Assembly (NCBI RefSeq): GCF_900113605.1
Contig: NZ_FOPY01000004.1
Coordinates: forward strand, 186,001-250,000
Direction of reading: 5' to 3'
DNA from: Modicisalibacter xianhensis
Lineage (GTDB): Bacteria > Pseudomonadota > Gammaproteobacteria > Pseudomonadales > Halomonadaceae
Length of the DNA stretch: 64,000 nt
Position numbers and translations under genes: made by a program. This document shows positions 53,675 through 57,322 of the stretch, piece by piece; the stretch's first letter is position 1; every line of letters starts with the position of its first letter. Under the pieces are notes generated by a model. It did not search any database, was not told the origin of the DNA, and saw nothing but the letters and a program-made list of their open reading frames with translations.

Positions 53675-53703
53675 TTGACACGTTTCATCTTACTCCCTAG
53701 AAT
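53675..53703 (+). promoter_or_regulatory. Sigma-70 promoter of metNIQ
   Basis: TTGACA, exactly 17 bp, then TAGAAT: a near-consensus promoter. It would initiate near 53710, just before the riboswitch. Confidence 0.8.
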
Positions 53704-53720
53704 CCAGCGCACATCATTCA

Positions 53721-53790
53721 GGCGCCGATTTGTACCCGGATTGCGGGCGCCTCCGGAGCCTTGTGTTCCGGAAAGTGCAGCTAAAAGGGT
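53721..53790 (+). ncRNA. SAM-II (SAM-alpha) riboswitch upstream of metNIQ
   Basis: P1 is GGCGC (53721-53725) paired with GCGCC (53747-53751). Loop 1 has the conserved GATTTG-ACCC and ATTGC, and the 3' strand has GCAGCTAAAAGGGT (53777-53790). ACCC (53734-53737) can pair with GGGT (53787-53790), and TGC with GCA, giving the H-type pseudoknot of SAM-II. An extra hairpin, CCGGA (53753-53757) with TCCGG (53767-53771), is inserted before the 3' strand. Matching is from my memory of the SAM-II consensus. SAM-II aptamers bind S-adenosylmethionine and turn methionine genes off, which fits metNIQ. Confidence 0.85.
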
Positions 53791-53805
53791 GTGTCCAGCG
53801 TTGAT

Positions 53806-53834
53806 GGCCACCCACCAGGGTGGCCTTTTTTTTT
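53806..53834 (+). terminator. Intrinsic terminator of the SAM-II attenuator
   Basis: GGCCACCC and GGGTGGCC form a perfect 8-bp stem with loop ACCA, followed by nine Ts. It lies 15 nt after the aptamer and 134 bp before metN, so it is an attenuator rather than a gene-end terminator. Confidence 0.88.
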
Positions 53835-53967
53835 GCGAGTCCGCTACCCTCCTGCTGTTCGAGCATCATCCCGCCCGCATATGCCGATACGTCCTGCCCT
53901 CTTCCCGGCGGGCCGGTGGGACAGTATCGCCACTAGCGTACGTTGGCGCCGCGTTTCGACCAGGACC

Positions 53968-55011
53968 ATGATCACACTCGAGAACGTCTCCAAAACCTAT
54001 GGCAGCGGCCCACAGGCGGTCCATGCCCTCAAACCGACCGACCTGCACGTGGCGCAAGGAGAGATCTATGGCGTCATCGGCCTGTCCGGTGCCGGCAAAT
54101 CGACGCTGATTCGCTGCGTCAACCTGCTCGAGCGCCCCACTACCGGTCGTGTTGTCGTCGATGGCCAGGAACTCACTTCGCTCGGGCGCCAGGCGCTCAA
54201 TCACGCGCGCCATCGTATCGGCATGATCTTCCAGCACTTCAACCTGCTGTCGTCGCGTACGGTCTTCGATAATGTCGCCCTGCCCCTGGAACTGATGGGC
54301 GTAGCCAAGCGCGAGATACGCGAACGTGTTCAGCCCCTGCTGGACCTGACCGGGCTGAGCGACAAGCATGACAAGTACCCGGCCGAGTTATCCGGTGGCC
54401 AGAAGCAGCGCGTAGCCATTGCCCGCGCCCTGGCCAGCCGACCCAAGGTACTGCTGTGCGACGAAGCGACCTCGGCCCTCGATCCGCAGACCACGCAGTC
54501 GATTCTCGACCTGCTGAAGGACATCAACCGCAAGCTTGGGCTGACCATCCTGCTGATCACGCACGAAATGGAAGTGGTCAAGTCGATCTGCCACAAGGTC
54601 GGCCTGATCTCCGCTGGCAAGCTGGTCGAGGAAGCCGATGTCGGCGACTTCTTCACCTCGCCGAGCACGCGCCTGGGACGTGAGTTCCTCAATGCCTTTC
54701 TGGAACTCGATCCGCCACAGGCGTTGATCGACCGCATGGAAGCCAAGCCCGGCCCGCAGACTCACCCTGTGGTACGCCTGGCATTTACCGGCGATGCCGT
54801 ATCCACACCGCTGATTTCCCGCCTCGCTCGCGACTGCAATGTCGATGTCAGCATCCTCGAAGCCAAGGTCGAGTCGATCCAGGACCGTACCCTGGGGCTG
54901 ATGATCGCCGAGTTGATCGGCCCTCAGGAGAAGACCCAGCAGGCACTCGCCTACCTCAAGTCACACGATTTGCAAGTGGAGGTGCTCGGTCATGTCCGGC
55001 GCAATGCTTGA
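53968..55011 (+). CDS. metN: Methionine ABC transporter ATP-binding protein MetN
   Basis: A 347-aa ATPase of the D/L-methionine importer. It has Walker A GLSGAGKST, the signature LSGGQKQRVAIARAL, Walker B VLLCDEATSALDP and the H-loop LITHEM. The C-terminal NIL domain (VRLAFTGDAVSTPLISRLARDCNVDVSILEAK to the end) senses methionine and causes trans-inhibition. ATG at 53968 begins MITLENVSKTYG; AGGA is rather close (2 nt). It is preceded by a promoter, a SAM-II aptamer and a terminator and overlaps metI by 20 nt. Confidence 0.95.
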   Translation: MITLENVSKTYGSGPQAVHALKPTDLHVAQGEIYGVIGLSGAGKSTLIRCVNLLERPTTGRVVVDGQELTSLGRQALNHARHRIGMIFQHFNLLSSRTVFDNVALPLELMGVAKREIRERVQPLLDLTGLSDKHDKYPAELSGGQKQRVAIARALASRPKVLLCDEATSALDPQTTQSILDLLKDINRKLGLTILLITHEMEVVKSICHKVGLISAGKLVEEADVGDFFTSPSTRLGREFLNAFLELDPPQALIDRMEAKPGPQTHPVVRLAFTGDAVSTPLISRLARDCNVDVSILEAKVESIQDRTLGLMIAELIGPQEKTQQALAYLKSHDLQVEVLGHVRRNA

Positions 55012-55645
55012 ACTGATACTGATGGCCACCCTCGACACCCTCTACATGGTGGGTATCTCGGGCCTCGTCGCCGCTGCCCTGGGCGTACCGCTGGGCGTTC
55101 TGCTCTACGTGACTCGACCCGGGCAGATACTGGCCCGCCCCGCCCTGAACGGGATTCTCGGCATCGTCACAAATATCGGTCGCTCGATTCCGTTCATCAT
55201 TCTGATGGTCGCCATCATTCCCTTTACCCGGCTGGTCGTCGGCAGCTCGATCGGCACCAACGCCGCCATCGTACCGCTGACCATTGCGGCGATTCCCTTC
55301 GTGGCACGCCTGGTCGAAGGCGCTCTCAACGAAGTCTCGCCCGGCCTGATCGAGGCAGCACAATCCATGGGAGCCACCCCCTACCAGATCATCACCAAGG
55401 TGCTGCTGCCCGAAGCGCGCGGCGGCATCATTACTGGATTGACGATCACCGTGGTCACGCTGGTCAGCTATTCGGCCATGGCCGGTGCCGTTGGCGGCGG
55501 TGGCCTGGGCGATCTGGGCATCCGCTATGGTTATAACCGCTTCAACCCCGTGGTGATGCTGATCACGGTCGCCATCCTGGTCGTCATGGTGCAAGGCTTC
55601 CAGAGTCTCGGCGACACCCTGGTACGCAAGGCGGACCACAAATAG
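54992..55645 (+). CDS. metI: Methionine ABC transporter permease MetI
   Basis: A 217-aa permease with five to six helices. It begins MSGAMLELILMATLDTLYMVGISGLVAAALGVPLGVLLY and has the coupling loop LVEGALNEVSPGLIEAAQSMGATPYQIITKVLLPEA and YSAMAGAVGGGGLGDLGIRYGY. GGAGG lies 9 nt before the ATG, inside the end of metN, with a 20-nt overlap. Confidence 0.95.
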   Translation: MSGAMLELILMATLDTLYMVGISGLVAAALGVPLGVLLYVTRPGQILARPALNGILGIVTNIGRSIPFIILMVAIIPFTRLVVGSSIGTNAAIVPLTIAAIPFVARLVEGALNEVSPGLIEAAQSMGATPYQIITKVLLPEARGGIITGLTITVVTLVSYSAMAGAVGGGGLGDLGIRYGYNRFNPVVMLITVAILVVMVQGFQSLGDTLVRKADHK

Positions 55646-55721
55646 CCCGTTACGACTTGAAACACCGGCCGGCCGCCATCATGAAGGCAGGCTATCGCCA
55701 TCACCTGCAAGGAGATATCGA

Positions 55722-56552
55722 ATGACACCGACCCTGTCGCACCGTTTCAGCCCCGTCCGCCTGCTGGGCGCGGCAGCCCTGCTCGGCAGCGCCCTGCTCG
55801 CCGGCTGCGGCGGTAACGACGATGCCGAATCGTCCTCGATCAAGGTCGGCACCGTGGCCGGTCCCGAAACCGAGGTCATGCAGGTCGCCAAGCAACTGGC
55901 CAAGGAAAACTACGACCTGGATGTCGAGATCGTGGAGTTCACCGACTACGTCTCGCCCAACGCCGCACTGGCTGATGGTAGCCTGGATGCCAATGCCTAT
56001 CAGCACGAGCCCTACATGCGCAGCATGGTCGAGGACCGCGGCTACGATTTCGCCATTGCCGGGCGCACCTTCGTCTACCCGATCGGTGCCTATTCCGAGA
56101 AATACGACAGCATCGATGCCCTGCCCGACGGCGCCACCATCGCGCTGCCCAACGATCCGTCCAATGAGGGCCGTGCACTGATCCTGATGCACAACGAAGG
56201 CCTGATCGAGCTCAAGGACCCGACCAACCTCGAGGCCACGCCGATCGACATTGCCAAGAACCCGCACAACTTCGAGTTCCGCGAGATCGAGGCCGCCCAG
56301 TTGCCACGCGTGCTGCCTGACGTCGACATGGCATTCATCAATAACACCTTTGCCCAGCCGGCCGGCCTGAGCCTGGACGACGCATTGATCCGTGAAGGGC
56401 CTGAATCGCCCTACGTGAATCTGATCGTGGTACGCGAGGGTGACGAGGACCGCGAGGCGATCCAGCAACTCGTCGACGCCTACCAGAGCGAGGAAGTCGC
56501 TGCCAAGGCACAGGAACTGTTCAAGGGCGCGGCCGTACCGGGCTGGGAGTAA
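55722..56552 (+). CDS. metQ: Methionine ABC transporter substrate-binding lipoprotein MetQ
   Basis: A 276-aa NlpA-family lipoprotein. The signal ends in the lipobox LLAGC (Cys29), followed by a Gly/Asp-rich tether. The binding domain shows IKVGTVAGPETEVMQVAKQLAKENYDLDVEIVEFTDYVSPNAALADGSLDANAYQHEPYM and YPIGAYSEKYDSIDALPDGATIALPNDPSNEGRAL, which are family motifs. AAGGAG lies 7 nt before the ATG. It is the third gene of metNIQ, followed by a terminator. Confidence 0.95.
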   Translation: MTPTLSHRFSPVRLLGAAALLGSALLAGCGGNDDAESSSIKVGTVAGPETEVMQVAKQLAKENYDLDVEIVEFTDYVSPNAALADGSLDANAYQHEPYMRSMVEDRGYDFAIAGRTFVYPIGAYSEKYDSIDALPDGATIALPNDPSNEGRALILMHNEGLIELKDPTNLEATPIDIAKNPHNFEFREIEAAQLPRVLPDVDMAFINNTFAQPAGLSLDDALIREGPESPYVNLIVVREGDEDREAIQQLVDAYQSEEVAAKAQELFKGAAVPGWE

Positions 56553-57151: not shown

Positions 57152-57228
57152 TGGTAGGACCAAGCGGATTTGAACCGCTGACCTCCACGATGTCAACGTG
57201 GCGCTCTAACCAACTGAGCTATGGTCCT
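57152..57228 (-). tRNA. tRNA-Val (GAC)
   Basis: A 77-nt tRNA read on the minus strand. The acceptor stem is AGGACCA/TGGTCCT with discriminator A and an encoded CCA, the T-loop is GGTTCAAATCC, and the anticodon loop TTGACAT is flanked by CCACG/CGTGG, giving anticodon GAC. It is the second of two almost identical copies in transcription order. Confidence 0.95.
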
Positions 57229-57245
57229 GCAATGTGACGACCTGC

Positions 57246-57322
57246 TGGTAGGACCGAGCGGATTTGAACCGCTGACCTCCACGATGTCAACGTGGCGCTC
57301 TAACCAACTGAGCTACGGTCCT
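57246..57322 (-). tRNA. tRNA-Val (GAC)
   Basis: A near-identical copy of the neighbouring tRNA. The only differences I see are a G-C pair instead of A-U at the base of the acceptor stem (AGGACCG/CGGTCCT). The CCA end is encoded. The two genes are 17 bp apart and probably co-transcribed. Confidence 0.95.

Follow-up and report, generated by a model that had tools for sequence, protein, structure and literature searches.

Upstream of the methionine transporter operon metNIQ, the 64,000-nt stretch of Modicisalibacter xianhensis DNA analyzed here (hereafter the window) carries an element that, judged by sequence comparison, belongs to a known riboswitch class in a structural form that is new, and that is shared by most of the Halomonadaceae searched. 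It combines a SAM-II core with a P3-like hairpin in L3 and probably functions as a SAM-II-class, SAM-sensing riboswitch that acts as a transcriptional OFF switch for metNIQ. We call it a variant rather than a canonical member of SAM-II because the window copy falls below the Rfam cut-off and carries a covarying hairpin in L3, where SAM-II is described as having no P3. Less expected is that SAM-II elements appear to be common and poorly annotated in Gammaproteobacteria as GTDB defines them, with the betaproteobacteria included.

The locus runs from 53675 to 56552 on the plus strand in the order promoter, SAM-II-type aptamer, intrinsic terminator with nine Ts and metNIQ, with every feature named by the sequence-only reading where that reading had placed it. 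The sigma-70-type promoter (TTGACA-17 nt-TAGAAT, 53675-53703) matches 11 of 12 consensus positions; the 801-base region contains one promoter-like site as against a mean of 0.3 in shuffled sequences, and the position of the promoter predicts a transcription start a few bases 5' of P1. P1 is formed by GGCGCC at 53721-53726 and GGCGCC at 53746-53751. They enclose GATTTG (53727-53732), which we take to be the third-strand segment of the triplex in the SAM-II crystal structure, ACCC (53734-53737), the 5' strand of the putative pseudoknot P2b, whose partner is GGGT at 53787-53790, and TTGC (53741-53744), presumably the 5' strand of the ligand-site part of P2. The hairpin that had been noticed within the aptamer is indeed present at 53752-53772, with arms TCCGGA/TCCGGA at 53752-53757 and 53767-53772; it begins directly after the end of P1 at 53751 and is followed by AA (53773-53774). 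Further downstream, GCAGCTAAAAGGGT (53777-53790) includes GCTAAAAGGGT (53780-53790), the 3' strand of P2 and the pseudoknot, which we assume to be the SAM-site segment; taken together, the conserved core segments presumably correspond to the SAM-contacting parts of the crystal structure. The terminator (53806-53834, -16.8 kcal/mol) consists of an 8-bp stem, GGCCACCC-ACCA-GGGTGGCC (53806-53825), and the T run at 53826-53834. Shuffled sequences give 0.5 terminator-like sites in a region of that size, so the terminator is convincing because it is conserved and not because of the scan. The downstream genes metN (ABC transporter ATPase, 53968-55011), metI (permease, 54992-55645) and metQ (substrate-binding lipoprotein of the MetQ/NlpA type, 55722-56552) were assigned with NCBIfam. 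MetI (PRK10782.1, 250.8 bits, cut-off 212) and MetQ (TIGR00363, 292 bits, cut-off 228.85) score above their cut-offs and MetN just below its own (TIGR02314, 486.3 bits, cut-off 499.7, 13 bits under).

This arrangement is not due to chance, since its 126-nt stretch has matches with E-values of 1e-20 or below in 19 further genomes of the family; over these 126 nt the two nearest relatives share 97-98% identity with the window. When 58 genomes (the window's own and 57 relatives) were searched at the DNA level, loci L006-L035 were obtained; in all 29 loci from L006 to L034 the core is present and a metN-like ABC ATPase gene follows, and L035 is a match to the terminator only. Across the 24 sequences of alignment A1, 96.5% of P1 cells are paired and two of its six pairs show compensatory changes, and GATTTG, TTGCG, GCTAAA, GGG and the AA that follows the hairpin never vary; the window copy retains every invariant position. 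Divergent copies fetched later read GATTTA (L214, L220 and L226) or GCTAAT (L216 and L219). For the inserted hairpin, 85.5% of cells are paired and all six scored pairs show two-sided changes; none of 500 shuffles matched the 36 two-sided cells of the whole structure in these 24 sequences. The pseudoknot pairing CCC/GGG is intact in 24/24, with one U-G change and no two-sided change within Halomonadaceae; 32 of 1000 permutations reached the observed mean over 156 pairs, as did 672 of 2000 in a crude version with one pair for each of 52 tail types, figures that speak neither for nor against the pairing. At this level of comparison, P1, the inserted hairpin, the conserved core and the order of promoter, aptamer, terminator and metN can be taken as demonstrated; the feature in the window is real and the interpretation of its core well supported.

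The same picture emerges from a larger set of 63 distinct Halomonadaceae metN elements, chosen by a recognizable core with the metN Walker motif downstream, with duplicates removed and truncated copies excluded, such as L229 and L238, which have lost their 3' half. A sigma-70-like promoter lies about 13-18 nt 5' of P1 in 61 of them and a T run follows the element in 52. L3 is at least 24 nt long in 56, all of which fold to -5 kcal/mol or better, and in 38 of these 56 the hairpin beats 95% of mononucleotide shuffles. Model R1, built from 24 of the loci L006-L034 with the window included, matches 215 of 250 family genomes at E <= 0.1 (a few of the matches being marginal); the 35 genomes in which no R1 match was found include one of the window's own genus (G010). 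MetJ was absent from all 58 genomes of the DNA search, and the E. coli control was positive.

Within the family, some copies have taken other courses. Five loci from the window's genus (L030-L033 in G004, G012, G008 and G006, and L028 in G013) keep promoter, core and hairpin and have lost the intrinsic terminator. Stop counts per frame gave no support for a leader ORF overlapping the metN start in L030-L033, and a Rho-dependent platform at these four loci is only an idea. A decay series is formed by L229 and L238, without the 3' half of the aptamer, and L218, without the terminator. The series, which also takes in L224 and L228/L233, further includes a case in which a TetR gene separates metN from the element, and a copy with an L3 swollen to about 165 nt. 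A different architecture was found in some Halomonadaceae (genus g20, Halomonas urmiana), in which a short-loop SAM-II element with terminator is followed by a SAM-V-like aptamer (L114, L227, L230, L231, L232, L235-L237 and L239). These tandems precede ORFs, three of which (86, 217 and 280 aa) were tested and have no Pfam or NCBIfam match; others lie near AzlC or TauD-type genes.

Searching the whole window with Rfam at gathering thresholds returned two tRNAs and no riboswitch. The tRNA genes are near-identical and in tandem on the minus strand (57155-57228 and 57249-57322; 72.8 and 72.9 bits), with the anticodon GAC (valine) as read by eye. At relaxed thresholds the leader matches SAM_alpha (RF00521) with 17.8 bits against a cut-off of 36, over P1 and its loop only; the E-value is 0.095 on 361 bases and 0.27 over the whole genome, so that this match proves nothing alone. 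The best match in the leader is ctRNA_p42d over the terminator (E 0.017), which outranks SAM_alpha; it was rejected along with Phe_leader, isrD, suhB and istR, all of them below their family cut-offs and lying mainly or partly over the terminator. SAM_V and RF01726 gave no match in the leader at E <= 5, and a search of 20 relatives with RF01726 was equally negative at E <= 3. Hairpin-less relatives before metN behave differently from the window copy: on the full RF00521 model L026 reaches 47.8 bits and L024, from Phytohalomonas tamaricis, 36.9 bits, both above the cut-off, and L034 and L027 score 27.8 and 25.4 bits. None of 20 hairpin-bearing relatives reaches 36 bits, and only one of them, L028, is matched at E <= 3 (21.4 bits). 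Because two of the four hairpin-less relatives pass, the low score of the window copy is likely due to the inserted hairpin and not to a different core. The covariance test proposed for the SAM-II assignment thus came out below threshold for the window itself and above it for two relatives, and with these the core of the sequence-only reading is upheld, namely a SAM-II attenuator placed before metNIQ in a gammaproteobacterium. Model R2 was made from 24 short-L3 sequences, the window copy not among them; its best match in the window's genome is the site described here (E 2.1e-6 over positions 4-35 of the 58-position model), the next match having an E-value of 0.09.

The layout suggests how such a switch could operate. 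Transcription would start just 5' of P1. Plentiful SAM would stabilize the pseudoknot, in which GGGU (53787-53790) is held against ACCC (53734-53737); CACCC (53809-53813) would then be free, the terminator would form and transcription would stop before metN. Under SAM shortage the pseudoknot would open and GGGUG would pair with CACCC as an antiterminator, and the transporter would be made. We infer SAM as the ligand, the direction of the switch and the antiterminator; the OFF-switch reading follows from the general behavior of SAM-II together with the mutually exclusive arrangement, in which GGGUG (53787-53791) can take part either in the pseudoknot or in the pairing with CACCC, itself in the 5' arm of the terminator.

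The antiterminator had been proposed as a pairing of 5 bp. It can be extended by CCA (53795-53797) with UGG (53805-53807) to give a candidate hairpin at 53787-53813, which alone folds to -10.6 kcal/mol; a version with inner UGUC/GAUG is weaker (-6.1 kcal/mol in the window). In L024 and L026 the UGUC version, there UGUC/GACA, gives the best fold, which is weak evidence because the changes are one-sided. For a nascent RNA ending at 53817 the minimum-energy fold consists of P1, the inserted hairpin and the antiterminator. Five nascent lengths, from 53813 onward, were tested, and at the other four a long-range alternative is preferred, which is also the minimum for the whole leader. All 12 linker variants checked fold with the outer arms paired, L214 with fewer pairs. 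When the terminator arms of Halomonadaceae loci were exchanged for arms from other families, 91 of 182 swapped arms paired as well as the locus's own, and with loci collected into 55 aptamer-tail groups the own terminator 5' arm was no better than the others (27/55 above the mean, p = 0.26). An ungrouped test gave 100 of 141 above the mean, but here arms were swapped within near-identical sequences. When families of the order were tested singly, a choice made once the overall test had failed, specific pairing was seen in f27 (metK) and f9, where 0 of 160 swaps were as good, as against 52 of 92 in f8, 12 of 26 in f37 and 21 of 50 in f39. The proposed pairing can therefore be lengthened but is no stronger in the family than pairing with swapped arms, and we regard the GGGUG/CACCC antiterminator as plausible but weakly supported.

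This outcome bears on the possibility that the aptamer is of the SAM-II class and a different antiterminator is at work, the linker UGUCCAGCGUUGAUGG pairing elsewhere (for example with the 5' strand of P1) or binding a factor. The failure of the swap test for Halomonadaceae is in line with it, as is the strong conservation of the linker, which is non-coding (the distance from GGGTG to metN modulo 3 is 20/16/16 in 52 terminator-type loci); moreover, the minimum fold of the whole leader, and that of most nascent lengths, places GUC and GCGUUGA against the 5' P1 region. However, this long-range fold would not antiterminate, because it leaves the terminator formed, and both the minimum fold at 53817 and the pairing of the outer arms in all 12 linker variants speak for GGGUG/CACCC. 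We consider a different antiterminator unlikely, if by no means far-fetched.

Three further explanations concern the aptamer itself. A SAM-II core could sense another metabolite such as SAH, its pocket being altered by the hairpin or the context, and close aptamer variants with a changed ligand are indeed known in another SAM class (PMC10853860, in the text available); here the core segments are unchanged, the hairpin lies outside them in L3 and the target is methionine uptake, which makes a changed ligand quite improbable. The element might also be vestigial, with a real promoter and terminator around an aptamer that no longer regulates, as the decayed relatives L229, L238, L218 and L028 could suggest. 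We hold this to be very improbable for the window copy, which has kept all the positions invariant in A1, has nearest relatives almost identical to it and shares a core retained across genera. Finally, a leader-peptide or protein-binding attenuator could merely resemble SAM-II, and a GTG frame is open from 53791 into metN. The frame through GTG and linker is not conserved across species (62 loci chosen by GGG tail and metN start), for which reason the leader-peptide reading was dropped, and Rfam's own threshold admits two hairpin-less relatives to SAM-II; a mere resemblance of this kind is hardly credible. The reading that we prefer is accordingly still that of a SAM-sensing OFF switch.

Related elements extend well beyond the family. 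In the window's order, R1 matches 66 of 293 genomes at E <= 0.1, many of them weakly. The 22 order loci outside the family (L071-L092) include ten before metN, seven before metK, two before metZ/metY-type genes and one before metA, the genes being assigned by eye and MetK, MetA and one metZ/metY-type protein checked by profile; one locus (L076) lies directly before its gene with no terminator. SAM-II before metN occurs also in an Endozoicomonas-type family (L198, from an Endozoicomonas), in a third family of the order and in Thalassospira, and a locus of the metK type is found in Marinomonas ushuaiensis (L194). With these cases in other families and the spread of R1 among Halomonadaceae, the view that transporter control by SAM-II is an isolated oddity in a gammaproteobacterium does not hold. 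At the remaining two of the 22 order loci a SAM-I/IV riboswitch follows SAM-II by about 110 nt (L071:977-1079 and L073:1612-1719; 62.9 and 58.0 bits, cut-off 41.1). Scanning named genomes for the sequence pattern gave at least 118 loci, of which 110 have the full core and eight were left out for want of CTAAA within 95 nt. By clustering, the 110 listed loci comprise 39 before metX, 22 before metY/metZ, 13 before metN, five before metH, three before aspartokinase/homoserine dehydrogenase genes and two each before metK and metA, so that 86 in all precede methionine or SAM genes; MetX was checked on one representative, MetN, MetK and MetA on loci of the present analysis, and MetH and homoserine dehydrogenase by eye. 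L3 exceeds 20 nt in 18 of the 110, 11 of which are from outside Halomonadaceae, mostly betaproteobacterial, and have longer hairpins.

At the level of the class, the short-loop model R2 matches 182 of 369 genomes at E <= 0.001, with rough E-values. Twenty hits, evenly spaced over the best-scoring listed part of these matches (the weakest lie outside this specificity check), comprise 17 before metZ/metY, two before metK and one SAM-II/SAM-V-like tandem, i.e. 19 of 20 belong to methionine or SAM genes. All 20 match RF00521 and only five reach its cut-off; all of 20 order-level loci match and four reach it, one at exactly 36, and six of 20 mixed named loci do so. Just downstream of SAM-II-controlled metK, on the same strand, two loci carry SAH riboswitches (L242:1424-1499 on the plus strand and L243:326-411 on the minus strand; 49.4 and 60.1 bits, cut-off 37). 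The Burkholderia sRNA family RF02424 (Bp2_287) matches the strand opposite the SAM-II leader at 10 of the 20 class loci (L240-L259) and at three of the 20 order loci (L071, L073 and L080), always below its own cut-off; what is filed there as an sRNA may be a SAM-II leader in reverse complement.

Rfam annotation thus misses 20 of 20 hairpin-bearing copies and 15 of 20 sampled plain copies from the window's class, and for these bacteria the published maps of methionine regulation are therefore probably incomplete. The elements offer a concrete candidate for the control of methionine uptake and SAM synthesis in bacteria without MetJ. As a tentative proposal, to which we give slightly less than an even chance, the Halomonadaceae element would be a structural bridge between SAM-II and SAM-V whose functional P3 tunes folding or ligand affinity for termination, and undercounted short-loop relatives would make SAM-II a common regulator of methionine and SAM genes in MetJ-less gammaproteobacterial lineages and not a mainly alphaproteobacterial one. 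Our search of the literature for SAM-II in Halomonas, for metN and for P3 in SAM-II, with most subscription papers outside its scope, found no paper on the window element.

The following published accounts are each cited for the portions of text that were available. Corbino 2005 (PMC1273637) lists a few cases outside alphaproteobacteria, including Coxiella, Bordetella and Bacteroides, Barrick and Breaker 2007 (PMC2258182) describe gammaproteobacterial SAM-II as sporadic and possibly transferred, and Leyn 2014 (PMC4239095) found SAM_alpha only in Rhizobiales and Rhodobacterales. The last study also describes, in the text available, a betaproteobacterial metXZ element with six conserved regions, a pseudoknot and a terminator before metX/metZ, as a new RNA element and not as SAM-II. 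Because SAM-II-core elements sit before metX in betaproteobacteria in our scan, the metXZ element is probably SAM-II, a comparison made by description and position only. For S. meliloti metZ, termination by SAM-II has been both predicted and investigated (PMC9373788), and tandems of SAM-II with SAM-V and with SAM-I-IV have been described, the latter with seven published examples (PMC9481103), both as given in the available parts of these papers.

With SAM-II as described in the accessible text for RF00521 (Corbino 2005, PMC1273637), the window element shares P1, GATTTG, TTGC, GCTAAA and a predicted pseudoknot, as well as a promoter just 5' of P1, a terminator after the aptamer and a methionine-related target; it differs in the L3 hairpin, the transporter operon as target and the score below the Rfam cut-off. 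A long-loop variant of SAM-II has been published (RF01726; Weinberg 2010, PMC2864571), listed in the available text from Bacteroidetes and marine samples, with which we compared the element by name and by covariance search. The hairpin resembles a feature of SAM-V, in which, according to the part of PMC6061858 available, a P3 stem-loop follows the P1 3' strand and is itself followed by adenines located in the minor groove of P1; the paper states as well that SAM-II has no P3 helix. Both SAM-V and the window element have a stem-loop directly after the P1 3' strand followed by conserved adenines, and a covarying hairpin at the P3 site of a SAM-II core would join the two classes. SAM-V is, however, described there as translational, with a P3 of 3 bp in the solved structure; in the window element the hairpin is longer, a terminator is present and the core is that of SAM-II, and in place of a ribosome-binding site within the pseudoknot, as in SAM-V, 177 nt and the terminator separate its GGGT from the start of metN.
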